Below are positions 35,998-62,573 of a DNA stretch of 64,000 nt, piece by piece. The position numbers and the translations under genes were made by a program. This DNA is from Litoreibacter roseus (GTDB lineage Bacteria; Pseudomonadota; Alphaproteobacteria; Rhodobacterales; Rhodobacteraceae): contig NZ_BLJE01000002.1 in the NCBI RefSeq assembly GCF_009811795.1, positions 62,001-126,000 of the forward strand. Reading direction: 5' to 3'. Position 1 is the stretch's first letter. Every line of letters begins with the position of its first letter. The notes under the pieces are model-generated. The model saw only the letters and a list, made by a program, of their open reading frames with translations. It did not search any database and was not told the DNA's origin.

Positions 35998-36022
35998 CCG
36001 TACAAGTATATATTGATGTGGT

Positions 36023-36952
36023 CTAGATAGCAGACTTCGCGGCTGCCGTGTAAAGCATCACCACATCGTTCATGTCTTTCAGCGTGACGTTCAGACCATC
36101 GAAAATCGCATTCATCTGATCGACAGAAAGCTGACCTCCTGCAACTACCGTTTCCAGCTTTGCTTTTGCCGTGGTCCAGTCTTCATAAACTACATCGAGA
36201 CCAGCTTGTATCTCATCTGTCGGCGGTGGATTGATGCCTGCATTCGGGAAACCGTCTTTCAACGCGATCAACGATGTCTCGAACATGTTCATTGTCCCGG
36301 TCAGCGCATCCGCACTTCCCATCGCGTTAATTTTCGTAGAGATCCCGCAGCTTTCTTTCGACATCTTCTGGGTCAGCATGCGCTGACGCCCGGAAATATC
36401 GATCAGCATTGCATCGGACTGCAACATCTCGGCAGGGTTTGAGTATTGCCCGACGATCTCACTGACCAACAGTTTTGCTTCATCTAAGAGCGGCATATTA
36501 TTTTCGGCGATATGCAGGATGTTCGCCTGATGATCATCACCCTCAAGAATGGCCTCTGACGCAGTTTTGATTGGGCCCCAGACCGCCTGCAGCTTCTCGA
36601 TCTGGACAAGGGTCTTCCGACGCTCCTCCGGGCCGATGATGCCAATGCTCTCGTCACCGTATTGAAGCGCTTTCACGATCTTCTCGAATTCCGCCGTACT
36701 CGTGGTCAACGCAGAGCGGCTGCCGTCGCCACCTACCCCATTGACGTAATAGCAAGCGGATGCCGAGATCCGTTGCGACAGCATACGAAGTTTCCCAGCG
36801 AAATTTATGCGCTCGCCTGCGCCAACGTCTTCGATTACGAGTCCGGCGGGCTCAACCTGACTTTGCATCGCGGCCTGCGCGATTGCACCGTGAAGCCCAA
36901 GCGCCACGATAGCGGCGGGAAAGGCCAAGCTGCATTTAGGTATCTTCTTCAT
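36023..36952 (-). CDS. Secreted double PilJ-type domain protein
   Basis: A 309-residue exported protein with a signal peptide (residues 1-27, ending A-I-A-Q-A). Two copies of the type IV pili methyl-accepting N-terminal (PilJ-like) helical domain are marked by F-A-G-K-L-R-M-L-S-Q-R (about 51-61) and I-S-G-R-Q-R-M-L-T-Q-K (about 186-196). No signalling domain or second membrane segment is present, so it is probably a periplasmic ligand binder. The start at 36952 has GGAGG upstream. It is last in the minus-strand run from 49277. Confidence 0.75.
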   Translation of the reverse strand: MKKIPKCSLAFPAAIVALGLHGAIAQAAMQSQVEPAGLVIEDVGAGERINFAGKLRMLSQRISASACYYVNGVGGDGSRSALTTSTAEFEKIVKALQYGDESIGIIGPEERRKTLVQIEKLQAVWGPIKTASEAILEGDDHQANILHIAENNMPLLDEAKLLVSEIVGQYSNPAEMLQSDAMLIDISGRQRMLTQKMSKESCGISTKINAMGSADALTGTMNMFETSLIALKDGFPNAGINPPPTDEIQAGLDVVYEDWTTAKAKLETVVAGGQLSVDQMNAIFDGLNVTLKDMNDVVMLYTAAAKSAI

Positions 36953-37069
36953 TCCAAACCTCCATCCCTGATCAGCCATAGAACAGCTGATCGATGCGGT
37001 AGGGCGGCTCTTTACGGGAGAGCGCGCCCTACAGAGTTGTTGATGTTTCTTTGCGTAGACTGTGCAGGC

Positions 37070-38665
37070 TTAGCCCTGAACGTCCTTGCTGACCCAGACC
37101 TCGACCCGGCGGTTCACACCCCGACCGATTTCGGACGTGTTGCAGCCAGCCGGAGCCACTTCGCCAAACCCATCGACATTGATTTTGACATGGTCAATCT
37201 TGCCGTTTGCGAAAGCCGCGAGGTCAGCTGCAACCTGTTGCGCACGCACTTTAGACAGATCGCGGTTCGCATCGAAGGCACCCACATCGTCAGTAAAGCC
37301 AACCAACGTTATCTCAGTTCCTTCAGGCTTGCCCTCAAGGTAGGAGATCAGCCGCTGCATATCCAACAACCCGCGTTCATCCAGCTTGGACGATCCAGTC
37401 CGGAACCGGAAGGTGGTCGACAGGCGATCATGCTCAAGCATTTGCGCCAGCATCTCACGGATCACACCAGCTTCGTAATTGTCGGCCTGCGCCTTAATCA
37501 GGTTCTTGGCACGACCGCTGTCCATCGATTGACTCTGACGCTTGATGCCCAAGTTGATGAAACCGGATTTCGTTACAACGCCGTCAGCGTTTTCCGACAG
37601 AGCGAACTCAAGGAATTTTTGCGCCTGCTCATCGAGCTGATCACCCCTGTTGTAGAGATACAGCCGGCGCTGAAGCGCGTATTCTTCCGTCTTTGAGGCA
37701 AACGGATCAGGCTGGCTTTCAAGACCGCATTCATTCACCAGGTTGAGTGGTTTCGCACCTCGCTGGAATGCATAACCAACAAACCCGATGGCAGATGGAT
37801 CATCATTGACGATGGCTGCAACGTCATTGTTTGTCTCCGCAACAGTGTGATTGTCAACGTATTGTGGGCCATCTTCAGTAAAGACGCGGTTCTTAAATAC
37901 AGAAAGAGTACCGGAGTTCGATTGCCGACTGATCGCCTTGATCGGCAGGTCAGGTCCGCCCAGTTCAGACCAGTTTGTCATCTGTCCGGAATAGATCTGC
38001 TGAAGCTGTTCGATGCTGATCGTATCCACCGGATTGTTCGGGTGAACGACCATGACAAGGCTGTCCACCGCGACGATGTGCTCTTGGTCAATGCTGACCA
38101 TATTGCCTGCGCCTGCGTCGCGCAGTTCGCGGGCTTCAGCTGGGCGGATCCGGCGGGATGCCATCCCGATAGAGGCCGTGCCCCCCATGAGCGTTTTGAA
38201 TGCATCACCGGACGATGTGGACGTGACGAGGAAGCTACCAAGCTCGTCGCCAAACCCACCGTCGCCAACAAAATTAGCGAGCATAACGCCCTCTTGCGCC
38301 GTGTTGGAGATGCTGGCTTCTGCATCAAGATATGACGCATACCCGCTCATCAGAAGCGGCATCAGACCCAAGCCCACCGTATCAGAGCCTGCGATTCTTA
38401 CGTCTGCAGTTTCAGTTTCAAACTTAGGGCAGTCGGCGCCTTCGCACCTCACCCGGCTGGCACTGATCCGAAGGTCGCCCAAGGCGGTTCGAATAATGTA
38501 GTTGTCATCTTTGAAGTCAATGAACTCGCCTACCAAGTTCACCGTACCATCCGCAGATTTCAGGGCAACTTCGCCCGCGTTGGCAGAAAGTGTAATGAGC
38601 GCAGCACCCAAGAGTGCAGACACACTCAATGTCGGTTTAGATGAAAAATTTAGAACGTTTCTCAC
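37070..38665 (-). CDS. PstS-like substrate-binding / OmpA fusion protein
   Basis: A 531-residue exported protein. Signal peptide to about residue 30; an unknown stretch to 85; a phosphate-type (PBP-like) domain about 86-340 with G-S-D-T-V-G and S-N-S-G-T; and an OmpA C-terminal domain about 419-531, with G-F-T-D-D-V-G and N-R-D-L-S-K-V-R-A-Q-Q-V, which binds peptidoglycan. The start is a GTG at 38665 with GAGGAGG 6 nt upstream. It would hold a phosphate-binding module at the cell wall. No pst transport genes lie nearby. Confidence 0.85.
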   Translation of the reverse strand: MRNVLNFSSKPTLSVSALLGAALITLSANAGEVALKSADGTVNLVGEFIDFKDDNYIIRTALGDLRISASRVRCEGADCPKFETETADVRIAGSDTVGLGLMPLLMSGYASYLDAEASISNTAQEGVMLANFVGDGGFGDELGSFLVTSTSSGDAFKTLMGGTASIGMASRRIRPAEARELRDAGAGNMVSIDQEHIVAVDSLVMVVHPNNPVDTISIEQLQQIYSGQMTNWSELGGPDLPIKAISRQSNSGTLSVFKNRVFTEDGPQYVDNHTVAETNNDVAAIVNDDPSAIGFVGYAFQRGAKPLNLVNECGLESQPDPFASKTEEYALQRRLYLYNRGDQLDEQAQKFLEFALSENADGVVTKSGFINLGIKRQSQSMDSGRAKNLIKAQADNYEAGVIREMLAQMLEHDRLSTTFRFRTGSSKLDERGLLDMQRLISYLEGKPEGTEITLVGFTDDVGAFDANRDLSKVRAQQVAADLAAFANGKIDHVKINVDGFGEVAPAGCNTSEIGRGVNRRVEVWVSKDVQG

Positions 38666-38810
38666 TGTCGTCCTCCTCAATACGAAACAGTTTGAGGCGA
38701 TGCAGTTTTGGGACCTTCACATCCAACACTATTTACCACACCGCATTATCTTTGCCGGCTCAATAAGGTCACATTCAGAGCCAGCATCTCTACGCTGCTC
38801 CGATTTTGTG

Positions 38811-38839
38811 CAAAATTTGCGGCAAAGCTACGGCAAATA
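38811..38839. repeat. TTTGC direct repeats upstream of the PstS-OmpA gene
   Basis: On the minus strand TTTGC occurs three times at 11-12-bp spacing (complements at 38811-38815, 38823-38827, 38834-38838), each in phase with one helical turn. GCAAAATTTGC (38811-38821) is also a palindrome. They lie about 146-174 bp before the GTG at 38665. OmpR/PhoB-type regulators bind such phased repeats, but the sequence is not the Pho box CTGTCAT. Confidence 0.4.
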
Positions 38840-38960
38840 TCGGATTGGTCATCAACCAGAAACAGTTCTGGATTTTACTTCAAAATAGCTGATGAAATGT
38901 TACTTCAAATCAAAGAGTTGAAGTACACTGATATTCTGGAATGTTTCTCAGAATGGCAAA

Positions 38961-39701
38961 CTAATTTTGCAGCGCGTACCAGTGCGATGCAATCGAAGTC
39001 GCGTGGTCAGCTCCAACAAATGCAATCAGTAACTCATTTTCAATTTTTGAGACCAGCACCTTAGAATCAGCAACGGGAGAAGCGTCCAAAATCAAACACG
39101 CTGGTTCCGTTGAACCTTGCAGAATCTGCGTTAATTCCTCGATGATGTCATCGCTAGATGCGCCAAATACCTCTTCCAATTTGGCAAGCGGATCGGTTTC
39201 TCCGTATTTGTGGCTGAGGTCGCCATCACAGAACACAAGCCAAGCCAACAAAGTGGGCTGCGCGCTTGCGACGAAATGATCCATAGGGCTGAGTTTTTTA
39301 GCGCGAATGGGGTCCGACAGATCAATCGACATATGCTCCGCAAGGCGCGAAACGGCAACCCCAGGCTCCGTCGGATCCGCCGCATGGGCCGTCCGATGTG
39401 CCACCACAAAAAGGGTGTCGGCACCTTCGACAAGGTATCCGATTTCGCTCACGAGGGTCTCAAAGCCATCCTTGCCAGATGCACCCTCAATTATACGGCG
39501 GCTTGAGACCGTCACTTCGAGCGCTGTTCCGGTGTTGGTGCTGAAGGACAAGATGCGGGTCAGGATCGTCTGATCAATCTCCTGAAGCAGCCCTGTGCGG
39601 AGATCGTCTTCTGATCCCGTCATTACCACACGGGGCATGTTCGCTGGTGCGGCGTCAGCCAGAAGATCCAGAGCGTTCCAAAAACGAGCATGTTTTGTCA
39701 T
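38961..39701 (-). CDS. Unrecognised cytoplasmic protein of the GTPase cluster
   Basis: A 246-residue protein with no family I recognise. It starts M-T-K-H-A-R-F-W-N-A-L-D-L-L-A-D. Stretches such as D-T-L-F-V-V-A-H-R-T-A-H-A-A-D and P-A-C-L-I-L-D-A-S-P-V look like beta strands of a Rossmann or P-loop-like core, but no Walker motif is present. GGGGGAGA before the ATG at 39701 supports the start. 19 nt separate it from the Roadblock-like gene; it is a probable cluster member. Confidence 0.7.
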   Translation of the reverse strand: MTKHARFWNALDLLADAAPANMPRVVMTGSEDDLRTGLLQEIDQTILTRILSFSTNTGTALEVTVSSRRIIEGASGKDGFETLVSEIGYLVEGADTLFVVAHRTAHAADPTEPGVAVSRLAEHMSIDLSDPIRAKKLSPMDHFVASAQPTLLAWLVFCDGDLSHKYGETDPLAKLEEVFGASSDDIIEELTQILQGSTEPACLILDASPVADSKVLVSKIENELLIAFVGADHATSIASHWYALQN

Positions 39702-39720
39702 AACGATCTCCCCCAAGCGA

Positions 39721-40086
39721 TTATGGTTGTGCTGCTATTTGTGAAAGCGCTTCGCGTGCGGATGACATCAGGGCGCCAAAATCAACATCTGTTGAACAGA
39801 CGCAGCACAACCCGTCGGCCAACTCGTCGCCGTCTCTGAGATAGACCGTCACGTTTTCAGTCCCGAATACCATCGCCTCGACGGTCGGCTCAGCGCTCGC
39901 GAGGCTTGCGATTTTGCCGTCCAAAGCTGTTGTCATGGTCGTACACAACTTGTCCAAATCTTCTTGCCGAACATCAGTGGATGAACTCGTGCATAAGACC
40001 ATCTTCGTGGACAAATCTGCGAACGCGATCGTGTGGCACGTCGGAAAAGCAGTTTCGATCTGATCAAGTATTTCTACGATTTTCAT
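39721..40086 (-). CDS. Roadblock/LC7-like small protein
   Basis: A 121-residue protein. The pattern A-F-A-D-L-S-T-K-M-V-L-C-T-S-S (early strands), a helix, then V-E-A-M-V-F-G-T-E-N-V-T-V-Y-L-R and the cysteine pair C-C-V-C matches the alpha/beta Roadblock-like fold by secondary-structure reading. Roadblock (MglB-type) proteins often control small GTPases, and two GTPase genes lie upstream. Fold assignment is inference. Confidence 0.5.
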   Translation of the reverse strand: MKIVEILDQIETAFPTCHTIAFADLSTKMVLCTSSSTDVRQEDLDKLCTTMTTALDGKIASLASAEPTVEAMVFGTENVTVYLRDGDELADGLCCVCSTDVDFGALMSSAREALSQIAAQP

Positions 40087-40117
40087 GTGTCAGCCTCAAT
40101 AGCACAGACGATGTGTA

Positions 40118-41110
40118 TCAGGCTGATGCTTTCTTGTCGCCAGCAAGTGCGGACCGCAGGCTCGACAGCTCAACGGGCTTATGCTCCGCCACTTGCCGCT
40201 TTGCCTCTGCAGGCGCACCAGCCGCATCACGTGCCGGTCGAGCCGTAGCGCCGTTGGTCTGCGTGCGTACACGGCGTGGCAAGACCACGGTCGCAGGTGC
40301 TTCGTCTGCCGCTGCTGAGACTTTGTCGATGGGCATAGGCGCTTCACCGGGTTCTGCGGCAGCCGTCGCAATCAGAGTATCTACGACGGGATCCGGTCGG
40401 CTGGCAACTTCCGGCAGTGCACCATCATTATCGACCACCTCTCTGGTAAGCCGCTGTGTCAGATCGATCAACGCGTCTGCAAACGCATCTCCACCGCTGG
40501 CAACCCATTTTTCTCGATCTTCACCAGCCGCCATCGCTTCGGTCAGAGAGATTGGGTAAAGCCCACAGAATTGATCACGCGTTTCAGAAGCAACGCGCCG
40601 GATGATGCGAAGCCGGTCCTTTTCAGAGTGAATTTTGTCGATCCGTGTGATCAGCAGAATGCTCTTCTGCTTCAGACTTTCCGGCATGGTTTCCCAAACA
40701 GCAGCCTCACTTTGACGCCAGGCCTGCGTCGCGTGGGTGCACCACAGAACCGCATCCGCATGATGCACAACGCGCTGCCACACTTCAGACGACATGTTCG
40801 GATCGGAAATTCCCGGCATGTCGATCAGATCGCAGACAGTCAGAATGTCAGAATCATCGAAAATCCGGACCATTGTCGTCTCTTCGAGTGGCACATCCTC
40901 AAGCCGTTCCAAGTCCACAGCATGAATTTCGCCGGAAAGGTCGACACGATGCGCAGGTTCATCCCCGTAGGAAATCCAGACAGGTGGAAGCTGTGTCGCG
41001 GTTACCTTTTCGGGCAAAGGACGGGAGCCCAACAACAGATTGGACAATGTACTTTTCCCGGCGCTAAATTCACCCATGAGGGCAATGCGTGGTTTGCGTT
41101 CAATCGTCAT
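40118..41110 (-). CDS. Dynamin-like small GTPase with Ala/Pro tail
   Basis: A 330-residue GTPase. G1 (Walker A) G-E-F-S-A-G-K-S-T at about residues 13-21, G3 D-M-P-G at 97-100, and G4 T-R-I-D at 155-158. The segment W-C-T-x-A near 123-127 and E-x-x-x-W nearby is shared with the GTPase at 43370-44986, showing the two are paralogs. The tail after about 220 is Ala/Pro/Arg-rich. AAAGGAG before the ATG supports 41110. It is 19 nt after the large dynamin-like gene. Confidence 0.82.
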   Translation of the reverse strand: MTIERKPRIALMGEFSAGKSTLSNLLLGSRPLPEKVTATQLPPVWISYGDEPAHRVDLSGEIHAVDLERLEDVPLEETTMVRIFDDSDILTVCDLIDMPGISDPNMSSEVWQRVVHHADAVLWCTHATQAWRQSEAAVWETMPESLKQKSILLITRIDKIHSEKDRLRIIRRVASETRDQFCGLYPISLTEAMAAGEDREKWVASGGDAFADALIDLTQRLTREVVDNDGALPEVASRPDPVVDTLIATAAAEPGEAPMPIDKVSAAADEAPATVVLPRRVRTQTNGATARPARDAAGAPAEAKRQVAEHKPVELSSLRSALAGDKKASA

Positions 41111-41129
41111 TTCAAACTCCTTTGACCAA

Positions 41130-43211
41130 CTATGCTGCGAAGGCAGCAAGTTCGTCCATTGTCACGTCAAGGCAGAGCGCTTGTTCTTCCTGCGCTTTCA
41201 CGCCGAACAGCTCATCAAGGTCTTCGTCGCTGATATTGCTCTTTTCTAGCACATCCATAAGGATTGCGCGCTGCTCAACAAAGAACTCTGACAGCGTAGC
41301 CACGCAATCCGTCCGGATTTTCGCGGCATGTGGACCTTTCAAATCCTCAACAATCGGATTCGTTTCAGCCTCTATCAATTTATAAAAGTCTTCGGCGAAG
41401 GCTTTGTAACCACGGCGGCGGCGCCACCAGCCTTTCCACCAGCCTGTTTGCAAATCCAGCGCGATGGTCTGGCCAAGGCTCACCGGTGGCGCGATATGCG
41501 GAACAAGCGCGGGTTTAACGGTGAAGCCGTCAACCGAGACGTTGAACATCGTCGCGTAGATTTCAGTGAGTGCCTCAGCCGCGCCTTGGTAGGCGGTCTC
41601 ACCCGCAATGCTCGCCTTCTTTGAGATCACCTGATAGCTTGACCGCAGCAAGAGCCGCAGGCCCATCGGGCTATATTGCCAGATTTCATCCGCGCCCTTC
41701 TTTTCCAGATGATCAATCAACGACGCGGTTGCGCGCTCAAGGAAGCGACCATGGGATTGGTCAACGCGCGTGTTGAATTCCCCAATTGCCTTGGACAAAT
41801 CCTGAGACAGTTGCTGCGTGAACTTTTGTTCGATCTCGTCGATTGCAGTGACGACCTGATCTTTTTGAAGCCCGGCATCGCCATTTCTATCGCTTCGCAT
41901 CAGCGTAACTTGGTTCGTTGCCCGAAGACCTGTCGCGATGTTCATCGCCTTACGCGCTGCTTTCTGGATCGCGTCTTGACCTGCACCCTCATCAACCCGT
42001 TCGGCCAGCGCACGATAGAACGCCGGTATTCCCGAAGCCTCCCAAGCAAGCTCTTCCGGGGTTAGCCTGTCGTGATTAACGTCCTCAAGCGTCGCCGACC
42101 AATTGTCGAGCGACTTGGCGCTCTCGCCGTGCATTGCCTCTAACGTGCCAAGCATGGCCATATTCGCCCAATATGCACTGCCGAAGATTATTTCGGAGTC
42201 GGCGGGACCGTTGTTCTTTTTCAACGTCTGAATGATGCTATCGCGAATTTCGGGAACTTGCGTCGCGGGATCCGGCAACTCATCGATGCGGTTCACGAAA
42301 ACGATGATCTCGCGTGACTTCACATTGGAGATCAGCCGGATTAAAGCCATATCCATTGAGGTCAACGCTTGGTGTGCCGAAAGTACGACAACGCAGATGC
42401 GACTGTCACGGATCGCGTTGATAGTGATCTGTTCGCGCATCATGAAGGTGTCATTCACACCGGGCGTGTCGCGAATACACAATGGCAATGGCATGTCGGG
42501 GCGTTCGATATAGAGATCTGCGGACTTGGTGATGTCGGCGAACTGACCCTGGTTGTCCGTTTCTTCCCCTTCGATCGGATCGTCGCCCAAGCATACGTAG
42601 CGCTGGATTAGATCGTCATCGATATAGCCGTATTTGTGTTCCTGTCCCAACAGCAATTCAAACTTCCGCCCAAGACGTGCGCGGGTTTTGTCGCGCATCT
42701 GAGCGATCTGGGCGCGCACCTTTTCCAGTTCATCATCAGCGCCCGCGCGCGCGGCCAGCTCGCCAATGCGACCGCCGTCTTCGACAAGACGGTCCCACTC
42801 GGTCTCGTCGAAGAATTTGAACTTCGCACGCGATGCCGGATCGGGATCGGGCGTGTTGATATGGAGGGATGTCACGACCGACGTCCAAGGGTTCACATCG
42901 GCGGGCAGCAAATCGGGCGAACCGATCATTGCATTCACGAGGGAGGTTTTGCCAGCCTTGATCTGGCCGATGACCGTAACGCTTGGCTGGACAGCTTCCA
43001 TCTGCAGTTGAAGTTTGGAGAGCTTCTTCTGCGTCTCCTCATCTGCCAGAACCGACAGGTTCTCGAGCGCATCTTCGAAATCGGACAGCTTTGCGGCAAA
43101 CGCAGCCATGCCCTCAAGACCGCGCTTGAAGACATTTCTCAGGGCGGGGTCTACGGCGGTGTAATCTTCTTCGATAACGTCATCCATATTCATCTGACTT
43201 ATCTGTCCCAT
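41130..43211 (-). CDS. Large dynamin-like GTPase
   Basis: A 693-residue protein. The G domain has G1 G-Q-I-K-A-G-K-T-S at about 82-90, G3 D-T-P-G-V-N-D at about 248-254 and G4 N-R-I-D at about 307-310, followed by a long helical stalk-like region. A basic-aromatic patch W-W-K-G-W-W-R-R-R-R near 591-600 is a likely membrane-contact site. Bacterial dynamins remodel or protect membranes. The start at 43211 is uncertain; M7 or M9 are alternatives. Confidence 0.85.
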   Translation of the reverse strand: MGQISQMNMDDVIEEDYTAVDPALRNVFKRGLEGMAAFAAKLSDFEDALENLSVLADEETQKKLSKLQLQMEAVQPSVTVIGQIKAGKTSLVNAMIGSPDLLPADVNPWTSVVTSLHINTPDPDPASRAKFKFFDETEWDRLVEDGGRIGELAARAGADDELEKVRAQIAQMRDKTRARLGRKFELLLGQEHKYGYIDDDLIQRYVCLGDDPIEGEETDNQGQFADITKSADLYIERPDMPLPLCIRDTPGVNDTFMMREQITINAIRDSRICVVVLSAHQALTSMDMALIRLISNVKSREIIVFVNRIDELPDPATQVPEIRDSIIQTLKKNNGPADSEIIFGSAYWANMAMLGTLEAMHGESAKSLDNWSATLEDVNHDRLTPEELAWEASGIPAFYRALAERVDEGAGQDAIQKAARKAMNIATGLRATNQVTLMRSDRNGDAGLQKDQVVTAIDEIEQKFTQQLSQDLSKAIGEFNTRVDQSHGRFLERATASLIDHLEKKGADEIWQYSPMGLRLLLRSSYQVISKKASIAGETAYQGAAEALTEIYATMFNVSVDGFTVKPALVPHIAPPVSLGQTIALDLQTGWWKGWWRRRRGYKAFAEDFYKLIEAETNPIVEDLKGPHAAKIRTDCVATLSEFFVEQRAILMDVLEKSNISDEDLDELFGVKAQEEQALCLDVTMDELAAFAA

Positions 43212-43353
43212 AGTACCGATCACATCCCATTACAGCGGGATGAGCAAATTTATGCCATCTCGCCCTGCAAAAGCCATTGTTAATCCGCTTTTAATAGCGA
43301 GATCGTGACCCGAATATGGCGGCAATTCGGCATTGTTAGGCGAACAGATACAG

Positions 43354-43372
43354 TAAGCCCCACAAAGGCTTA
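43354..43372 (-). promoter_or_regulatory. Small hairpin at the GTPase gene end
   Basis: TAAGCC/GGCTTA with a 7-nt loop, overlapping the stop codon of the GTPase at 43370. The following 140-bp spacer before the dynamin-like gene may contain a separate promoter. No T-tract. Confidence 0.3.
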
Positions 43373-44986
43373 TGCAGCGTTAAGAAGGTCCAAATCACGG
43401 CGAAGTTGCAGCAAAAGCGTAACAGCGTCGAGCGCAGCAACGCCTGCGTCTTCCATCTGCAACAGGACAAGAATGTCCAATGCATCCGTCACATCTTCCT
43501 GAAGTGCGGTCGCTGAGGGGTCTTCAGACTGTTCGAGATTCGCGCTCAGCGTCTCAAGCGCGGCCTGACAACGCTCAATGATGAGTTCACTGTCCGGATC
43601 AGCCGATCTATCAGAATCACCTTGGATAGCGGTCGCCGCACTCGCCAAAATTTCTCGCGCACTCTCAACCCCGAACGTCTCCAAACCAGAATCATCCTCG
43701 ACGGACTGTGGTTCAGGCGCTTCCGCGGCGACGTCCTCCGGCGACTCAGCGTCTACCGGCGGCGCCCCCACGAAGTCTACGGTTGTCTCTTCTTCGAGTT
43801 CCTCGACACGTTCTGACGCGACCTCCTCCACCGGGAGTTCAACGGCCTCTTCATCAGTCTCGCTCTCGACCGGCTCGTCGGCAGTCATCTCATCTACGAC
43901 ATCCACGGGCGGCAGCAAATCAAGAGGTGCACTGTCTTCAGGCACTTCCTCTATCTCTGGAGAAGGCTCTTCCGCAGGCGGGATATCAGCAAGCTCAGCA
44001 TCGACCTCTTCGAATGTCAGCCCTTCTTCGGGTTCGATTTCAGGTTCAGCAAAATCCACCGGCTCGTCCGTCGCGAAAATCGGATCAGCCAGCTTTGCAA
44101 CAACGGGCTCAGGCGCCACGGACGCCGCATTAGGGGCATCAACCTCCGGCTCATCCTCGAAATCGTCTGGAACATGTCGGGCCAAGAAAAGTTCAACCTG
44201 GTCGAGACTGGCGCGCTGGCCCGCATCGACCTGCTTCTTCACACCTGAGATCAGCGCAGGCGCACCGCTGGCCTTGAACATATCACGGTTCAGTTGACCA
44301 TCCGGTGCGTTTGCGGCCAAAGCTTCCAAAGTCGCAAGCGGCAATATCTTCAGAAACCAATCTGCGGCGACACCTTCGAGTGCTTGAAGGTGGCTTTTCA
44401 AAACGCCCTTTTCGGACGCGATATCTGCTTTTGTGACAACCAGGAAACCATGGTCTCTGAGCGCGTCTGGTACGCTATGCCAGATCTTTCTCTCGTTTGG
44501 GGCGAAAGCTTGCGTGCACCAGATCGCGATGTCCGTTCTGCGGCATGCCCACGCCACGGCCTTCATATGGTCGCGCTCATCTCCACCAGCGGCGACTTCG
44601 AGCAGGCTGATTTTGCGCAGTGCAGGCAAATCCGCTTCAACCGCGACCAAAACGGGGGCCATGTTTGCCGCTTCCTGCAGCGCGATACCGTCCAAGGTCG
44701 CCGTAGAGCCGTCGCCAAGCGTGCAAATGGTCTTTGCCTCGGCGCCATAGCGCAGTTCCAGCGTGGGCAGGCGCAAGCCAGCGGGTATAATCTGCTGACC
44801 AACAAGCAAGTTTACCAAACTGGATTTCCCGGCCCCTGCCGTCCCAAACACGGTCACCCGCACGGGCTGACTTAGGCGCGTCAGCAGACGCGCGCCATTT
44901 TCGATAGCCTTGGACGGCAAGTTTGCTGAAGCGAGTGCTCGCTCCAGCCGTTTCGTTGCCGCCTCAGGCGACAGGGGTTCGGTCAT
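43370..44986 (-). CDS. GTPase with long acidic tail and degenerate switch II
   Basis: A 538-residue protein. G1 G-T-A-G-A-G-K-S-S is at about 48-56 and G4 T-K-A-D at about 185-188. At the G3 place it reads L-L-E-V-A-A-G-G-D-E, so the usual DxxG is missing. The region 155-180 (I-W-C-T-Q-A) aligns with the smaller GTPase. Residues 274-470 are Glu/Asp/Pro-rich and probably unstructured, and the C-terminal 60 residues form helices. It may bind GTP but hydrolyse slowly. It overlaps the PP2C gene by 4 nt. Confidence 0.8.
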   Translation of the reverse strand: MTEPLSPEAATKRLERALASANLPSKAIENGARLLTRLSQPVRVTVFGTAGAGKSSLVNLLVGQQIIPAGLRLPTLELRYGAEAKTICTLGDGSTATLDGIALQEAANMAPVLVAVEADLPALRKISLLEVAAGGDERDHMKAVAWACRRTDIAIWCTQAFAPNERKIWHSVPDALRDHGFLVVTKADIASEKGVLKSHLQALEGVAADWFLKILPLATLEALAANAPDGQLNRDMFKASGAPALISGVKKQVDAGQRASLDQVELFLARHVPDDFEDEPEVDAPNAASVAPEPVVAKLADPIFATDEPVDFAEPEIEPEEGLTFEEVDAELADIPPAEEPSPEIEEVPEDSAPLDLLPPVDVVDEMTADEPVESETDEEAVELPVEEVASERVEELEEETTVDFVGAPPVDAESPEDVAAEAPEPQSVEDDSGLETFGVESAREILASAATAIQGDSDRSADPDSELIIERCQAALETLSANLEQSEDPSATALQEDVTDALDILVLLQMEDAGVAALDAVTLLLQLRRDLDLLNAA

Positions 44987-45969
44987 TTAGCTTGGCCTGC
45001 CACTTTCGGTTCGCGAATAAACGTCGTCGGTGTGGTCACGATAGGCTCTCGAACGAGGTCGTCGTCAAGGGCTTCGTCTGCCGCGACAGGCATATTGTCG
45101 ACATTTCGCACATTTCCGCGGGCGCTGAGGGCTTGCGCCCCGTTCGCAAGCGGTGTTGTCTTGGCTCTTGCGGTGGTAGACACGTCGTTGACGCGGATTA
45201 CACAAATTGAGATATTGTCCTGATCCGGGTCGCCAAGGCGCTCTATGGCAGCCAAAAGAATATCAGCAATCTCAGCGCTGCGTTTCTTCCGGTTCCGATG
45301 GAGAAGGCGTTCGATTTGTTTCTCAGACAAGTATTGTAGCCCATCGGAAGCGACCACAACCATATCACCGGCCTTCAGGGTCGTCGGTTTCGCCGGGCAA
45401 TCCACCTTCGGGATCCGATCACCGATCAGAACAGATGTCAGGCAGTTCCGATCCGGGTGGTTCGCGCCGACCTCCGGTTCCATCAAACCGCTTTTGACCA
45501 TGAAATCGATCTGCGGCGCCATGGAGTGATCTTCGTTCAACTGTTTCAGCTTACCGCCGCGCAGCATATAAAGCGGAGAGTCACCGATAGAGATCCAGTG
45601 CAAGCGATTTTCGACAAGAACGGGTGCGACAAGCGTCGCCCCCATGCCACGGGTGTCAGGATGGTCTTCCACGTGGTCCCGCACACATGCGTTCGCGGCA
45701 TCAGCTGCGTGACGCAAAATCTCCTCGGCATGCGCTTCGAAGTTATCGATGTTGGCGCATTGGAACTTCAGCTCGCTGAATACTTCCGTAAGAATGATCT
45801 TGCTGGCAACATCGCCTGCTGCGTGTCCACCCATACCATCCGCAAGGACGGCAAAGCCGGAATTTGTTCCCATCGGGAAGTCCGCCGTCACGGCGTCCTC
45901 CTGATAATCTCGCGTGCCTTGGCTTATGCCAAGTGCGACGTCGAAGCGTGGTTCATGCGATCGCCACAT
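44983..45969 (-). CDS. PP2C-type Ser/Thr protein phosphatase
   Basis: A 328-residue PPM phosphatase. Metal-binding residues are in D-Y-Q-E-D (21-25), A-D-G-M-G-G-H (43-49), A-S-D-G-L near 215 and D-P-D-Q-D-N-I-S near 255. After about 275 an unstructured tail follows. The ATG at 45969 has GGAGGG 6 nt upstream and overlaps the FHA gene by 17 nt. It probably reverses phosphorylation by the kinase at 46971-49277. Confidence 0.92.
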   Translation of the reverse strand: MWRSHEPRFDVALGISQGTRDYQEDAVTADFPMGTNSGFAVLADGMGGHAAGDVASKIILTEVFSELKFQCANIDNFEAHAEEILRHAADAANACVRDHVEDHPDTRGMGATLVAPVLVENRLHWISIGDSPLYMLRGGKLKQLNEDHSMAPQIDFMVKSGLMEPEVGANHPDRNCLTSVLIGDRIPKVDCPAKPTTLKAGDMVVVASDGLQYLSEKQIERLLHRNRKKRSAEIADILLAAIERLGDPDQDNISICVIRVNDVSTTARAKTTPLANGAQALSARGNVRNVDNMPVAADEALDDDLVREPIVTTPTTFIREPKVAGQAK

Positions 45970-46894
45970 CGTCGTCGCCCTCCGTTTTGTCGGTTTCCCA
46001 GTTGAAGTCAGGGCCACACAGCGCGACCAGCCGAAGTGTTGTTTCGCCGATTACGATCTCATCGCCATTCGACAGCTCTTCAGTGCTGAGAAGGGGTTTA
46101 CCGTTCAAACGCACCAAGTTTGACTTTCCACCGTGTCCCAGGTGGAACTTGTGGTCCATAGGATCGTAGGCAATCGCCGCGTGGTTTGTGCGGGAGATAC
46201 TCGTGTCGCCAAAATCAAGTTGGACTGCCTGATCTTCACCCCGTCCGATCTGTGACATGCCTGCAAGCAGCGCATAGCTTTCACCGCGACCGGGCCCATC
46301 TGCGACGATGATCCAGCCAACCGGAAACTTTGCACGGCCATTTGCGACCTGACGCGCCTTCTCGTCGAAGAGATCGACGACGGGGCTTTCTGTGGGGTCA
46401 AAGCCCAGCAATCGTGTCTTGGTCCGCGCAGCACGCCGTCCGGGTCGACCGGAAGGCTTTGCGATTGGCACGGGTGCGGAAGCGTCTGCAGCAGGCTCCG
46501 GTGTCGGCTCAGGGACAACGCCGGCAAAAGGATCAGCTTCTTGCGGTGCTGCAGGTTCAGCTGTGTCGATATCCCAGACGTTCATGGCAGGTTTTGCCGC
46601 TTCCGGCTCGTCCGGCTTCTGTATCGTCACATCGCTTCTTGCAATGACACCGCCCAGATCAAGTGACGCGGGAGCGTCCAGATCTTCAGGCGATGTGCTC
46701 AATTCAGCAGCCAGGTCCGCCAATGGAAGATCGTCCATCTGAGGTTCTGCAAAAAGACTTTCGCCTGCCGCTTTCAGGGGGTCGAGACCGACGTCCTCAT
46801 TCAGCGTGTCTTCGAGGACAAGCCGTTCGTCTTCTTCCGACGCGCCGCCTTTATCGGCGGATTTTTTAGCGATCATTTCGCGAATAAACTTCAT
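45953..46894 (-). CDS. FHA-domain phosphothreonine-binding protein
   Basis: A 313-residue protein. Residues 1-190 are acidic and Pro/Ala-rich with low complexity; the FHA fold spans about 193-292 with I-G-R-G, S-I-S-R-T-N-H and L-N-G-K-P-L. FHA domains read phosphothreonine. An N-terminal T in V-L-E-D-T-L-N-E-D (about residue 30) is a possible kinase site, as in GarA/OdhI-type proteins; this is inference. 76 nt follow the kinase gene. Confidence 0.88.
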   Translation of the reverse strand: MKFIREMIAKKSADKGGASEEDERLVLEDTLNEDVGLDPLKAAGESLFAEPQMDDLPLADLAAELSTSPEDLDAPASLDLGGVIARSDVTIQKPDEPEAAKPAMNVWDIDTAEPAAPQEADPFAGVVPEPTPEPAADASAPVPIAKPSGRPGRRAARTKTRLLGFDPTESPVVDLFDEKARQVANGRAKFPVGWIIVADGPGRGESYALLAGMSQIGRGEDQAVQLDFGDTSISRTNHAAIAYDPMDHKFHLGHGGKSNLVRLNGKPLLSTEELSNGDEIVIGETTLRLVALCGPDFNWETDKTEGDDDVAIA

Positions 46895-46970
46895 TGTCCT
46901 GCCTCTTTCTGATCCGATCTCTCAACGCGGATGGTGATGTTCCCCCAGGAAACTGATGCACACCGATCCA

Positions 46971-49277
46971 TCATTGCTCTTCCGTGCTGTAGTTAAATGA
47001 TGCGACCCACATGAAGTTGTCCCGTGACACAGCAAAATTGAAGAACTCAATTTCGTTTGCAACTTCGCGCGTCATGATCTCCGCCATGGTGATATCTAGT
47101 CCGACCCGTTCGCTTGTTGGGATATAAGCTACAATAATATCCCCAACTTGTAGATCGTTTTCATTATTTTCAGGCACTGATGTGACAACAGTTTGCCATT
47201 CTTCGCCTGCGAACTTGCTCTGAAATTCGATTCCGTTGAGCAGGGCAACTTCCTGGACAACTGGTAACGCGATGTCATTGCGCGTAATCTCTGTTGCCCC
47301 GCTATCCTTCAAGCCAAACTGAATCTGAACCAACGGAACGTCGCTTGATGCCGCAGCAGCCTGTAAAAGAGGGCCAAGATCAGACGAGTCGCTGATTTCG
47401 GTGCCATTCACCTCGACCACAGCCTGACCTTCACGCATCCAGTCCGCAGCGGTTGGGTCGAGATCCTTGATCACAACATCAGAGCCCTGAGTGGTGGTAA
47501 ACGGCAGATCGACCGAAAGACCGGTGACCACGAGGCGCGACTGTGCCGAGACCGGTTCGAGCACGTCAGGAATAACTGCGCCATCGCGCGGTACAAAAAC
47601 GATTGCGGAACTGGCGCGCGAACTGCTGTCAACGGCGGGTTCTGCGGGTCCGTCCGGAATGACCGCGATGTCTGCTTCTGCGAACGAATTAGTCAATTCG
47701 TTAGACCGTTGAACAGGAATTGCGGATGTCGCACCCTCGGCCGCGTCTGATTGCCCTGCGGTCTCATCATCTGTCGATAACAGGCCTGATCCGACGACCC
47801 CGAGGGCTGCGACAATCGCAATCGCCGCCGCAGCCCCAAGGAACAACATCCCACGCGATTTTGCAGCGTGCGGAGCAACCGGAACCTCGGCGACCTCCTC
47901 AGCAGCGCTGTCATCTTCTGTGTGCTCGATAGTGTCTTGCGCGATGATGTCCGTCTGATCGTCAGAGTCCGACGCAGTAGCAATATCGCCTTCTGCATCA
48001 TCTTCCTCGATGTCTTCTTCAACAACTGGATCGTCACTCTTGTCCGTATCAATAATCTTATAGCTGGACGCGGGGAACTCGTTCACATCGTCAAGGTCGT
48101 CTGAGACCTCTGCACTTTCTTCTTTATCGGCCAAATCTTCAGCCGCAGTGATTTCTGTCTCTGCCTTGTCATCTTCAGGTTCTTCAACCACAACCTCTTC
48201 TGCCGGGACGGGAATTTCCTTCAGAGCAGGTTTCTCCTCGACCACGGCGCTCGTGGAAACAAGCTTAGCGACGGTCGCGCTGATGACAGCATCGTCTTGC
48301 GTCGAGGCCGCACCCTGTTTGGGCAGAACTGGATCAAACTCTTCGCCCTTCAGCATTGCAAGCCACTCTGCGGCTGATTGAAGGCGGTCCTTTGGGAACA
48401 CGGCAAGGGAACGGTCCACAGCCGCCAAAAACTTAGGATCAAGACCTTTGCCTGCCTTCTCGGAAAGCGGGACATAGGGATCTGGCTCACTTGCCGCGAT
48501 CGCTGCTAGGCGTGCTTGACTGTTTGGTGGCGTTTCACCTGCGGTCAGGTGATAGAACGTCGCACCCAAAGCATAGAGGTCACTGTAAGGCCCCTGCTTG
48601 CTGCCTTGGATATAGAATTCCTGCGGGGAGTAGCCGTCTTTGACGACACGCATTGCGGACAAAACACGGCTCTTCTTCGTTGCTTCTTCACGAGCAGCGC
48701 CAAAGTCGATCAGAACCGGATTGCGTGTTTTCGCATCCAAGAGAATGTTATCGGGCGAGATATCCCGATGCAGCATGTCCTTGCCATGGATGAACCCGAT
48801 GGCGTCAAGCAGCTTCTCAAGGATCGGCTGGACCTGCTCGGGCGGGATCATCTGCCCCCCCTCCTCAAGCGTCTCAAGCAAGTCGTAGCCTTCGACAAAA
48901 TCAAGCGCCATGTAGGCGGTGTCGTTGTCTTCGAAAACGTGATGCACGCCCACGATGTTCGGGTGATTCAGTTTCGACAAGTTGAAAGCTTCTTTGACGA
49001 AGAGCTTTACGATCGACTTGTATTCAGCCTGATGCGCGCGCGACCGCGCCGCAACGATATTGTGACTGCGGCGGCAGAAAGATCCCGGGAAGCATTCCTT
49101 GATCACAACCTTCCGGTCGAGACTGTCCCGCGCGAGATATGTAATGCCGAATCCACCACTGTTGAGAAAGCTCTCAATGGTGTACTGGCCATGCATAAGC
49201 ACAGTGCCCGGCTTCAACTCATCGGAGAAGCTCGACGACGCGTCACTCTCTGTTTTCTTCTCAGCTGCGGTACTCAT
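46971..49277 (-). CDS. Transmembrane Ser/Thr protein kinase with C-terminal PDZ-like region
   Basis: A 768-residue kinase. Kinase domain about 30-312: Gly-rich S-G-G-F-G, Lys60 in V-V-I-K, catalytic H-R-D at 170-172 and D-F-G at 191-193. A strongly acidic linker (about 355-465) precedes one membrane helix at about 477-500. The remaining 268 residues lie outside and include segments like S-R-L-V-V-T-G-L-S-V-D-L-P that resemble PDZ repeats. It may sense envelope signals. First gene of the run; preceded by a 305-bp spacer. Confidence 0.9.
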   Translation of the reverse strand: MSTAAEKKTESDASSSFSDELKPGTVLMHGQYTIESFLNSGGFGITYLARDSLDRKVVIKECFPGSFCRRSHNIVAARSRAHQAEYKSIVKLFVKEAFNLSKLNHPNIVGVHHVFEDNDTAYMALDFVEGYDLLETLEEGGQMIPPEQVQPILEKLLDAIGFIHGKDMLHRDISPDNILLDAKTRNPVLIDFGAAREEATKKSRVLSAMRVVKDGYSPQEFYIQGSKQGPYSDLYALGATFYHLTAGETPPNSQARLAAIAASEPDPYVPLSEKAGKGLDPKFLAAVDRSLAVFPKDRLQSAAEWLAMLKGEEFDPVLPKQGAASTQDDAVISATVAKLVSTSAVVEEKPALKEIPVPAEEVVVEEPEDDKAETEITAAEDLADKEESAEVSDDLDDVNEFPASSYKIIDTDKSDDPVVEEDIEEDDAEGDIATASDSDDQTDIIAQDTIEHTEDDSAAEEVAEVPVAPHAAKSRGMLFLGAAAAIAIVAALGVVGSGLLSTDDETAGQSDAAEGATSAIPVQRSNELTNSFAEADIAVIPDGPAEPAVDSSSRASSAIVFVPRDGAVIPDVLEPVSAQSRLVVTGLSVDLPFTTTQGSDVVIKDLDPTAADWMREGQAVVEVNGTEISDSSDLGPLLQAAAASSDVPLVQIQFGLKDSGATEITRNDIALPVVQEVALLNGIEFQSKFAGEEWQTVVTSVPENNENDLQVGDIIVAYIPTSERVGLDITMAEIMTREVANEIEFFNFAVSRDNFMWVASFNYSTEEQ

Positions 49278-49582
49278 CTTTCACCCACTAAGTCGCTCTG
49301 TCGGGGACTATTCCCAAAATGGCGACAAAGCCCCTCTGTCCTGCTAACTATCCCAAACAATTTGTTCAAATCATGAAGCCAATTGGCCCATTTGTAGTCA
49401 CAAAGCCGCCTGAAACCTTTAAAAGCCCATTAAATACAAAGGCTTCTCAAGGATCGCCGGAAAATGTGGCAGCGGCTGGGCGGTCGCGTGAATGTAAACG
49501 AAGTGTAAATCACCCCGAGTCGCGCGACCCTGAACAAGAGATTCTCTTTCGCTATGCCCGTCTTCGGACGTATGAACAGGTC
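49278..49582. other. Spacer upstream of the kinase gene
   Basis: About 305 bp between the kinase start and the tamB stop. It is AT-richer than its surroundings and probably carries the promoter of the minus-strand signalling run. TTTGT-AGTC-ACAAA at 49391-49404 is a small palindrome. No confident promoter or gene seen. Confidence 0.5.
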
Positions 49583-52500
49583 TTAGTAATCCCGCTTGAA
49601 AAAAACACCGAGAGAGGTGTTGCCATCGGCGCCCAGCGTGCCTTTCGCTGTGATGGAAGATGTCAGATCGATGTTCAACGATACGGAGCTGTCCGTTGAA
49701 GCCCCGACCGTCACGTCAGTGTAGACGTTGTCCGAAAGGTATTTGCCCGCCCTAACCGCTGTTCCGCCGTCCGAGTTGGTCGTTACGTCGAGATCATCCA
49801 GGTCAAATCCGCGCCTGAGCTGCGACACGATGCTGTTTCCTCCGCGCCCCGCGAGTGTAGCGACTGCGTTTGCGAGCTGCAGAGCCTGAAACGCGGATAG
49901 CTGACTGACGTCGCGTCCAAAGAACAGCTGGGCCAGAACCTCGTCTTGGGGTGCGGCTGGTGTTGACTCAAATCGCACTTCTGGGGAAGAGGCCGACCCT
50001 TCGATGACAACGCTCGCCGTTCCTGTCGCAGTGTCCGTCACCGCAACGAAACGCAGGAACGGATTGAAATCCCCCTGCAATTGGATGGTACCCTCATCCA
50101 GCGTGAACCTCTGTTCGAGAATATCCAGTCGCCCGCGTATCAACTCAAACCGACCGGCGGAGACGATGTTGTTTGTTGTGCCAGACAAACGCAGGCCGCC
50201 GCCCAGTTCCGCGTCGATCCCACGACCCCGAACAAAGATCTGAGACGGCGCCCGGATAGCAAGATCCAAGGCATAGCCGGGACGGTCCGCGCCAGTCTGT
50301 TCTTCAGGAACCTGTTCCAGCCCTGCCCGGGCGAGCGTTTGCGCGATACGGGGGGACGGGTTTACATGCACGACCTCTGGAACGATCCCGAAGCCGCCAA
50401 CACCGGACGACGGCACAGTGATCGTCGTTCGACCAAGCTCCAGATCGCCGGCGATCCGGGCACCGCCCTGTAGATTGCCCGCAAGGGTGACCTGCCCATC
50501 GACTTCGGTTTCATATAGCGACGGATCCACGAGCCCCAACCGGATCAGTTGGACACGAAGGTCTGCGGGATTTGGCGCGGCAAGCCCTATGGTTCCAGAC
50601 ACCGTAACCCGGCCACTGGTCGTTGACTGAGCGGTAAGATCAAGTGCCGCACGGCTTCCCTGAAGGTTGATCGTTCCGCCAATGTCTTCGAACGCCAGTC
50701 GAAGGTTCGGATCGGCAAACCGGCCACCGGATATTGTGATATCACCCGACACAGCGTTCAAAGACGCAGGGCCATCTATTTGCAGCGCGAACCGGGTGTT
50801 TCCTGAAATCCGCCGGGGCGTGATAAACGGATTGGCAAGACCTAGTGGTGCGGTGCCTTGCGCGCTCACATTCAATTGGCCTTCGTTGGAAACCGTTCCG
50901 GCGATCTGCGCTCTAGCACCCGCGGGTCCGTCCAGAACAGTTGCCACCTGCCACCTATCACCACTTTCTCGCGCTGTGCCATCTAGGACAACAGATCCGT
51001 TCACGTCAGTGACCAAAGGACTGATATCTGGGACGCGCACGGTATAGGACAACGACCGCACCGGCCCTGTAACGACGCCACGCAAGCGAGCCGTGGATTG
51101 ATAAGGACCCGTCAAATCCGCATTCACGATCCAGTCGTCGTCAGGCTGTTCTGCCGTCCCCGTTATGGTCGCAGCCCCGCGGTATTGGGGGGCAAGCGGA
51201 TTCACATCCGGTAACCGCACGTCATATTGGATCGAGGGCGAGGCCCCAGTGGCACGCCCGGCGACTGACGCGGTCAATCCATAGGGCCCTGCGACATCTG
51301 TCTGGATCTGCCATCCCTCGACTGTTTGCTCGGCGGTGCCGTCCAACTCAACGGCACCGGTAAACTGCGGAACCAGTGGGCGGATGTCGGGCAATCTTAC
51401 TTCATATTTCACATTCGGGTTTGGTCCGGTCGCCATGGCATCCACACGCGCCGACAGATCATAGGGGCCCGCCAAATCCGCAACGACCTGCCAGCCGTCG
51501 ACCCTTTGCGTGGCAATGCCGTCTACGGACAACGCGCCGCTGTACTGTGGCACCAGCGGCTGGACGTCGGGCAGGTTCAACTGAAATGCCACCTCGGGGG
51601 TCTCGCCCGCAAGACGACCTGCGATCTGTGCTGTTGTGTCAAACGGGCCTTCTGCCATCGTCAGAACGGACCATCCCTCCGGCGTTTGCGTTGCAGTACC
51701 ATCTAGGAGCAAAGGGCCGGTAGTATCTGGGATAACCAAGCCTGAATCGTTCAACCGGATGTCGTATTCCGCGAAGGCATCATCGGTAGCAAACCGGCCT
51801 GAGGCCTCAACTGAGATCTGATCGTTTGAGACGTTTGCTCGCTCCAGAACCGTCCCATCCAGAGTGCGACGGGCGGCAATATCCAGTCGTGTCGTCCCGG
51901 CCAAAACGGTGTCTGCCTGTGATTGATCCAGACGAAGATCAGTTGCATTACCGGCGATAACCACATCAAAAGCGCCCCCCAAAGCAGTGGAGCCCGCGAT
52001 ATCAAGCGTCGCTTGTCCGCCCAGTGACCGGCCCGCAAGACCTGAGAAGCGTTCAATGGACTGCGCCGCAATGCTTAGATCAAACGCAGTCCGCAATCCT
52101 TCCCCCAATGCGTTCACATCTACATCACCGGTCAGTGCGTAATCCTCCCCGCCTAAGTTAAGATCAGTGAGACGCAGAGGCTGGTCTTCTACATATTCAA
52201 CAGCAAACGACCCCTCGATCTCCGGCCCGACGGCTTGTTGAAGCGCCTCATCGCCGAAGGCGATCCCGTCCGCAGCAATGTTCATATCGGCGGTGACCTG
52301 GCCGACCGCATTCACATTGCCTTGCAGAATGCCGCGGCCATCCAGTGCAATGCGGGCCACTTCCATCTCACCACGGATCAGGTCAAGAACACTCGCGCGC
52401 GCAGACCATGTGTCGCCAGCATCTCGGTCATACTGAACTGAAAGATCAACGCTGCCGACCCGCGTCGGCGCCCCGCCTATGGGCAAAAGAACCGTAGTAT

Positions 52501-61642: not shown

Positions 61643-62573
61643 TTGGACCAACAGTCCGCTTCTGGACCAGTGGATCATCTGGATCCAGCACGCCGTAGCG
61701 CACTAAAAGGGCGGCTATGGATGCCTCAGACGCGCGGGTTGCGCCATCGACAATTTTAAGCGCAATCCCAAGTTGCTTACCCGGTAAGATCGCGATGAAC
61801 ACGCCTTCGGCCCCGGTCTTGATGGCCGCCTGCCCATTCGCCGCGCCCATAAGTTCCGTGCACGCCCTGCCCTTTCCCGCGACCAAATCGGGATGTGCGA
61901 TCATCGCCTCAACAAGCCGCTTTGCCGCCACGCCACGTGCATCGGATGTTTTTGACACCATTTGGGCTGCGGCGCGGGCAAGACCGGTCAACGTCGTTGC
62001 GAAATTCGGGGCGGAGCAGCCATCAATCCCATATGTGGGGGAAACCAACCCGGTCATGTTTTCGAACGCATCCCGGACGGCCAGTTGAACCGGATGATCG
62101 ATCTCAAGATATTCCGGCCTCGCATTCAGATGCCTGCCTAGCGTCAAAAATCCGGCGTGTTTTCCGGAGCAATTGTTATGCAATTGGCAAGGTTTATCCT
62201 GCGCACGGATCAACTGCTCCGCCATGTCTTTATCCGACGGCGCCTGCACACCACAGCGCAAATCACCTTCAGAAAGTTCGAGATTACCAAGCCATGCCCC
62301 CACCCTATCGGCATGCATTGCAGCCCCTTCGTGGGAGGCGCAAGCAAGGGCCAGATGCTCAGACGTCAAACCGAACCGATCCGCCGCACCACTTTCGATC
62401 AGCGGTAACGCCTGCACCATCTTGCAGGACGACCTGGGATAGATCACAACCTCGGCATCGCCCCACGCTTCGACCACCTCGCCCGCGGTGTTGCAGACCA
62501 CAGCATGACCAAGATGTAGCGATTCAAGCAGGTCACCACGCCAGATTTCCAGCATTCGAGCGGGTTGTGTCAT
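61578..62573 (-). CDS. L-asparaginase, Rhizobium type II family
   Basis: A 331-residue enzyme of the PF06089-type asparaginase family known from Rhizobium etli. Features are S-R-S-S-C-K-M-V-Q-A-L-P near residue 50, the C-x-N-C-S-G-K-H-A-G-F motif around 133, and Y-G-I-D-G-C-S-A-P near 182. It hydrolyses asparagine to aspartate and ammonia. Its last 21 codons lie within the 3' end of the histidine kinase gene on the opposite strand. Confidence 0.88.
   Translation of the reverse strand: MTQPARMLEIWRGDLLESLHLGHAVVCNTAGEVVEAWGDAEVVIYPRSSCKMVQALPLIESGAADRFGLTSEHLALACASHEGAAMHADRVGAWLGNLELSEGDLRCGVQAPSDKDMAEQLIRAQDKPCQLHNNCSGKHAGFLTLGRHLNARPEYLEIDHPVQLAVRDAFENMTGLVSPTYGIDGCSAPNFATTLTGLARAAAQMVSKTSDARGVAAKRLVEAMIAHPDLVAGKGRACTELMGAANGQAAIKTGAEGVFIAILPGKQLGIALKIVDGATRASEASIAALLVRYGVLDPDDPLVQKRTVGPITNWRGLVTGRMQVDPALTAK

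Follow-up and report, generated by a model that had tools for sequence, protein, structure and literature searches.

Introduction

Bacterial dynamin-like proteins are common, and the triggers that switch them on are, to our knowledge, largely unknown. What could place such a protein under the control of a eukaryote-type phosphorylation switch is the question raised by a gene block of Litoreibacter roseus (Rhodobacteraceae), located in a 64,000-nucleotide stretch of DNA (positions 62,001 to 126,000 of contig NZ_BLJE01000002.1, assembly GCF_009811795.1) that is referred to below as the window. Eight open reading frames (ORFs), designated KIN, FHA, PPP, GTA, DYN, GTB, RBL and UNK, follow one another on the minus strand between positions 38961 and 49277, where the initial annotation, made from the sequence alone, had placed them. 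They encode a Ser/Thr kinase, an FHA-domain protein, a PP2C phosphatase, what looks like a degenerate GTPase, a large and a smaller dynamin-type GTPase, a predicted Roadblock-fold protein and a fast-evolving protein. The intergenic gaps in this order are 76, -65, -4, 146, -20, 31 and 4 nt, so that five of the seven neighbouring pairs overlap or lie less than 40 nt apart, as described for most of them at the outset; of the three wider gaps then counted, only two exceed 40 nt (KIN-FHA, 76 nt; GTA-DYN, 146 nt).

The favoured reading, given a probability of about 0.5 with the physiological role left aside, is a horizontally spread phosphorylation switch that controls, at the inner membrane, a dynamin pair regulated by a Roadblock-type protein.

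Conservation of the eight genes as a unit

The eight genes form a real unit. Their conservation was assessed in 195 genomes of the order (87 genera) searched with a DYN profile, in 60 stretches from 52 Rhodobacteraceae genomes hand-picked from the DYN table, and in a named collection that yielded 434 pattern matches, 410 of them to relatives, and from which 80 loci were kept, partly overlapping with the 60 stretches (e.g. L021 and L099). The window's gene order is kept across many genera: all eight genes occur in this order in 38 of the 60 stretches, or 39 on a recount that includes L029, where KIN lies 4.2 kb off. Of the remaining 21, two hold no kinase in the stretch (L026, L027), three are truncated at contig ends (L028, L061, L068), four are rearranged forms with two dynamin/GTPase pairs (L063-L066), and twelve have dynamins and no kinase trio in the stretch. 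Similarly, an unbroken eight-label order is found in 45 of the 80 named loci, the others being cut at contig ends, missing the kinase from the stretch (Tabrizicola and its kin), or carrying a split or turned gene.

Co-occurrence leads to the same conclusion. DYN is present in 71 of the 195 genomes, L. roseus included, and in 33 of the 87 genera, while 65 of the 66 genomes with an RBL match are DYN-positive; the sole other one (G109) has a partial match at E 6.8e-4, and six DYN genomes have no RBL match (G019, G062, G081, G087, G093 and G158). The association is strong (Fisher p 1.9e-43 over 195 genomes that are not phylogenetically independent, with no correction for phylogeny). Across the 40 loci with all eight genes, the distance matrices of the eight proteins correlate pairwise at 0.53-0.91, with KIN lowest, and mean identity ranges from 18.9% for UNK, the fastest evolving, to 47.5% for DYN, the slowest. 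The neighbourhood and co-occurrence checks proposed in the initial annotation thus bear out its expectation that the genes travel together. In this fixed set, a dynamin pair stands beside candidate regulators of its GTP cycle and a putative phospho-switch with one predictable threonine.

The GTPase half

In a Pfam search, DYN and GTB score above the 27-bit gathering score of Dynamin_N (Table 1), and GTA, at 23.2 bits, falls below it. Motif counts, here and below, refer to distinct ORFs pooled from both locus sets. The generic P-loop (G1), DTPG (G3) and N[KR]x[DE] (G4) are each found in all 143 DYN ORFs, whose profile matches 5owv_A (E 8e-10) and 2j68 (E 3.9e-8), while that of GTB matches 5owv_C, from the Campylobacter jejuni pair (E 1.2e-18). 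GTB is short, consisting of a GTPase domain and a variable tail with a PRR-type motif in 110 of 130 ORFs. An aromatic-basic WW..WWRR stretch of DYN is matched by pattern in 61 of 143 ORFs, and no claim is attached to it.

GTA is related to GTB (hhalign probability 99.7, E 3.5e-26), and the DxPG motif of G3 is retained in 15 of 123 GTA ORFs versus 124 of 130 for GTB. The strict P-loop is absent from 14 of 123 (one of them cut by a contig end) and kept in the L. roseus copy. GTA therefore looks, from its motifs, like a pseudo-GTPase and a degenerate sister of GTB. The acidic stretch for which it was originally named an acidic-tail GTPase is real (residues 301-420, with 46 D/E versus 1 K/R), but it is an internal linker followed by a conserved C-terminal segment rather than a tail.

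RBL has no Pfam or NCBIfam match, and its best match among PDB sequences, at E 0.48, is to an unrelated protein; its predicted structure nevertheless has the Roadblock/LC7 fold, as first supposed. Neither RBL nor UNK has a Pfam match up to E 1, in keeping with the description of the eighth protein as unrecognised, although structural modelling indicates that the C-terminal part of UNK is probably a second, weaker-matching Roadblock/longin-like domain. Sequence homology between RBL and UNK receives no support from hhalign (probability 0.5). The fold of RBL is one also used in animal cells. If a Roadblock-type regulator is indeed paired with dynamins, the reach of these regulators would extend beyond Ras-like and Rag-like GTPases.

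The kinase, FHA and phosphatase half

The signalling set originally proposed, formed by kinase, phosphatase and FHA protein, keeps its motifs in nearly all relatives. Among 90 distinct kinase ORFs of at least 400 amino acids, VAIK-, HRD- and DFG-type motifs are found in 86, 85 and 89, respectively, and the PP2C motif DGMGG in 103 of 105 PPP ORFs; the L. roseus PPP scores 148 bits against a Stp1-type model, under its cut-off of 230. The transmembrane nature assigned to KIN holds for this copy, in which hydropathy predicts one hydrophobic segment, and not for the family: such a segment is found in 13 of 45 kinase ORFs, KIN included, most relatives having none, and this predicted transmembrane form is lineage-specific. 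The extracytoplasmic part of KIN has a PDZ-like match below threshold (PDZ_2, 15.8 versus a cut-off of 27).

In the alignment, the N-terminus of the FHA protein is long and variable and ends, shortly before the FHA domain, in the motif R-x-K-T-R-L-L-G-F. The strict pattern is found in 86 of 104 FHA ORFs and a loose one (R-x-K-T-R-x-L-G-F type) in 97; in the whole L. roseus genome it matches once, in the FHA gene, and the reversed control pattern not at all. OdhI/GarA-type switches, proteins that bind their own phosphothreonine, likewise have a conserved threonine motif ahead of the FHA domain; against the OdhI family model, the L. roseus protein scores 25 bits, below the cut-off of 200. The motif threonine is the putative phosphosite, which makes the FHA protein a candidate phospho-relay. 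An N-terminal MKFIRDII-like peptide is also visible in the alignment; among 104 ORFs with unrefined start codons, just 37 fit its pattern, and no claim is made of it. Elsewhere in the same genome, which has no TssC match, a second set of FHA, PP2C and kinase genes (L180, 6709-9890) stands ahead of ORFs that by eye resemble proteases and ABC transporters.

The two halves also occur apart. Dynamin sets without the kinase trio in the stretch account for the twelve cases mentioned above (L067, L069-L079), and in L200 (9122-15387) KIN, FHA, PPP, GTA and PST, a solute-binding fusion protein that follows UNK in the window, are encoded consecutively in a stretch that has no dynamin. The input and output halves are therefore separable, which suits a GTPase machine under the control of a phospho-switch and agrees with the early division of the block into a signalling and a GTPase set. 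A third variant (L077, 5967-12596; L079, 7302-13369) combines RBL and UNK with an ABC-type ATPase-like protein, DYN and a GTPase, and the gene upstream in L077 encodes a dual-specificity phosphatase according to Pfam. A conserved small protein of 118-163 residues (alignment A8) is encoded near the kinase-less sets L067, L069-L071 and L073-L076; its Roadblock-like appearance by eye found no support from Pfam (2 of 8 sequences), PDB sequences or hhalign alignment to RBL.

Proposed mechanism

The favoured reading rests on the conserved order, the co-occurrence, the correlated distances and the kept catalytic and GTP-binding motifs, as well as on the matches of DYN and GTB to the chains of the C. 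jejuni pair, the Roadblock fold, the threonine motif found once in the L. roseus genome and the separate occurrence of the halves. Two further grounds are the paralogues of PST and the kinase that lie one gene apart in the same genome (L179) and the GlnH-GlnX-PknG-OdhI system, a precedent for a cascade of binding protein, kinase and FHA protein (PMC9769921).

The interactions, direction of signalling and output that we infer are as follows. An envelope or cell-state signal would activate the Ser/Thr kinase, perhaps received here through PST and the extracytoplasmic part of KIN, and in most relatives by a kinase without a predicted membrane segment. KIN would then phosphorylate the threonine of the FHA motif, and the PP2C phosphatase would reverse this. 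The FHA protein could subsequently switch partner, either by binding its own phosphothreonine or by docking onto a phosphorylated partner, thereby releasing or recruiting the GTPase half. In that half, DYN and GTB would act as the dynamin-like pair with the degenerate GTA as adaptor, while RBL, probably together with UNK, would set the GTP cycle. The output would be dynamin assembly on the inner membrane, serving to tether, repair or remodel membranes.

More tentatively, and with less than even odds, the locus could represent the first dynamin machine of bacteria to be gated by eukaryote-type phosphorylation and controlled by a Roadblock/longin pair, and would form a membrane-response system that is both self-contained and transferable. 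RBL and UNK would then serve as a small regulator, similar to Ragulator or Mon1-Ccz1, of two paired dynamin-type GTPases, accompanied by a pseudo-GTPase adaptor and an FHA phospho-switch. A literature search, which covered few subscription papers or preprints, found no publication describing the eight-gene set. Through a gene set with a predictable threonine, the control of a bacterial dynamin becomes directly testable.

Distribution, mobility and a possible role in defence

Outside the order set, DYN profile matches were found in 2 of 337 genomes of a class draw (E 1e-30) and 8 of 349 of a phylum draw (E 1e-20), all in Rhodobacteraceae, at limits that would miss more distant dynamins. Nineteen plasmid records match DYN, 18 of them over at least 80% of its length, and 12 of the 19 belong to Leisingera, including a 33-kb plasmid with all eight genes in order (by profile). 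Within the order set, the 21 genomes nearest to L. roseus by TamA score, a same-genus genome included, lack DYN, which is present in 3 of the nearest 25; the best DYN relative, at 59% identity, is found in a genome with 51% TamA identity. The simplest reading is acquisition by horizontal transfer, with repeated loss as the alternative. An empty site was sought beside TamAB in eight relatives and G173; TamAB is kept there, the window's other neighbours were not found, and no empty site could be read.

A Ruegeria plasmid carries the rearranged form of the set (L083, 22680-29254), in which kinase, FHA and PP2C genes are followed by two solute-binding-domain genes, the kinase again lying beside periplasmic-type binding proteins. 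On the Photobacterium plasmid pPGC22 (L082, 7282-14055), three genes of the dynamin family are embedded in an F-type conjugation region, flanked by a TraU family gene and traN. A phage origin was rejected, none of 42 pattern stretches from viral contigs being confirmed as relatives.

The scattered distribution of DYN (71 of 195 genomes, missing from the 21 closest by TamA yet found in more remote ones) and its occurrence on plasmids would also suit an anti-phage or membrane-damage defence system triggered by the kinase trio, with the dynamin pair sealing membranes under infection or pore attack. DynA of Bacillus subtilis delays phage lysis (PMC8844932). Kinase models of PADLOC match KIN at E 6.4e-42, and the matches of LeoA/LeoBC models to DYN and GTB range from E 6.5e-12 to 5.8e-8. 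Against this, PADLOC kinase models match many Hanks-type kinases, the Leo matches are partial, and FHA, PPP, GTA, RBL and UNK match no PADLOC model, so that no complete described anti-phage system is present among the eight; PST matches ZorB, a MotB/OmpA component, at E 2e-5. No defence gene was apparent by eye among the neighbouring ORFs listed, ten proteins having been scanned against the models. The lack of confirmed viral-contig relatives is neutral in this respect. Defence in this specific sense is less probable than the favoured reading; it and a broader function in membrane repair are both candidate roles.

Other explanations

A polarity or regulatory G-protein switch of the MglA/MglB or conservon type, with the dynamins acting as switches and not as membrane remodellers, would account for a Roadblock-fold regulator beside GTPases and a kinase, and for the short GTB with its variable tail. 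It is improbable, however, as DYN has 697 residues and a profile matching membrane-active dynamin-like proteins, and the GTPases match Dynamin_N best rather than the Ras-like family; in place of the histidine kinase and Ras-like GTPase of conservons, Pkinase and Dynamin_N matches were found.

Biogenesis of photosynthetic or other internal membranes is less probable still. Reaction-centre genes are present in 41 of 71 dynamin genomes versus 40 of 124 others (p 0.0008, over the 195 genomes, uncorrected for phylogeny or genome size) and in 20 of 33 versus 20 of 54 genera (p 0.046), and the L. roseus genome has them; yet 30 of the 71 dynamin genomes show none, and the same-genus genome G095 has them with no dynamin match, which leaves a weak association.

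Gating of type VI secretion in trans by the adjacent kinase, PP2C and FHA genes, in the manner of PpkA, PppA and Fha, is rejected as very improbable: a higher share of dynamin genera than of the others has TssC (19 of 33 versus 15 of 54, p 0.007), but the association is weak by genome (26 of 71 versus 29 of 124, p 0.068), TssC has no match in the L. roseus genome, where the initial annotation had likewise seen no secretion genes in the block and named a type VI locus as grounds for abandoning its proposal, or in 45 of the 71 dynamin genomes (other type VI genes were not searched), and FHA scores 14.8 bits against the TagH model with its cut-off of 120.25.

Neighbouring genes and non-coding sequence

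Table 1. Genes of the eight-gene block and the two that follow it, in window coordinates
Gene	Position	Strand	Features
KIN	46971-49277	-	Hanks-type Ser/Thr kinase; Pkinase 106.4 bits; one predicted transmembrane segment, residues 477-495
FHA	45953-46894	-	Variable N-terminus, R-T-K-T-R-L-L-G-F motif, C-terminal FHA domain (FHA 32.5 bits)
PPP	44983-46017	-	PP2C phosphatase; PP2C_2 42.6 bits
GTA	43370-44986	-	GTPase fold, apparently a degenerate sister of GTB; internal acidic linker, then conserved C-terminal segment
DYN	41130-43223	-	Large dynamin-like GTPase, 697 residues; Dynamin_N 48.3 bits
GTB	40118-41149	-	Smaller dynamin-type GTPase, 343 residues, PRR-motif tail; Dynamin_N 49.5 bits
RBL	39721-40086	-	Roadblock/LC7-fold protein (predicted)
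UNK	38961-39716	-	Fast-evolving; residues ~140-251 probably Roadblock/longin-like
PST	37070-38680	-	PstS-like solute-binding and OmpA fusion; PBP_like_2 101.4 bits, OmpA 36.8 bits
PIL	36023-36979	-	PilJ-domain protein; PilJ 102.6 bits; usual neighbour of PST

PST and then PIL come after UNK on the same strand, and PST is a candidate periplasmic accessory sensor. A kinase of at least 650 residues is accompanied by PST or PIL in the same stretch in 14 of 56 loci, a shorter one in 1 of 39 (some genomes being counted twice), and the single short-kinase case is a 191-residue partial match in L045. PST is also widespread on its own, matching at E 1e-40 in 146 of the 195 order genomes; among 20 stretches around PST copies (L186-L205), PIL occurs in 15 and a kinase of the KIN family only in L200. 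L. roseus itself has a further group of genes (L179, 7113-12719) made up of a PST paralogue, an ORF that by eye resembles TRAP-type binding proteins and a KIN paralogue of 861 residues. This kinase, 59% identical in the kinase domain, is one gene from the PST paralogue, and no GTPase of the eight-gene set was found in that stretch.

Over 68 named loci, the GTA-DYN gap (43224-43369 in the window) is mostly 90-260 nt long, and its sequence looks similar within genera among the relatives listed. An internal promoter ahead of the GTPase half is possible in this gap. Promoter and terminator scans returned 7 hits versus 5.1 expected and 15 versus 11.2 expected, respectively, and no known RNA element reached its gathering score in window positions 36000-50000. 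ORFs that we take by eye to be dnaA, dnaN, recF and gyrB lie approximately 9-17 kb from the block.

Comparison with known systems

Several described systems share parts of this arrangement. The PpkA-PppA-Fha pathway also unites a kinase, a PP2C phosphatase and an FHA protein in one locus, unlike which the L. roseus trio has dynamin partners, no TssC in the genome and an FHA protein that is not TagH by cut-off. In DO-GTPase/GAP1 conflict systems, GTPases are likewise paired in multi-gene operons; a text search finds the word dynamin nowhere in the main text of PMC7159879. MglA-MglB and the conservons resemble the block in placing a Roadblock-fold regulator beside GTPases and a kinase, but the kinase here is of the Hanks type rather than a histidine kinase and the GTPases are dynamin-type rather than Ras-like (conservon make-up from PMC13343842).

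Cj-DLP1 and Cj-DLP2 of C. jejuni, a pair reported to tether liposomes, are likewise encoded by two adjacent dynamin-type genes, and 5owv chains A and C are the best matches of the DYN and GTB profiles, although GTB has 343 residues versus 614 in 5owv_C, and the available text of PMC6104087 names no kinase, FHA, PP2C or Roadblock protein for the pair. The GlnH-GlnX-PknG-OdhI system similarly joins a solute-binding protein, a Ser/Thr kinase and an FHA protein; its output, as given in PMC9769921, is 2-oxoglutarate dehydrogenase, whereas the L. roseus operon contains GTPases as the putative output and includes the PP2C phosphatase.

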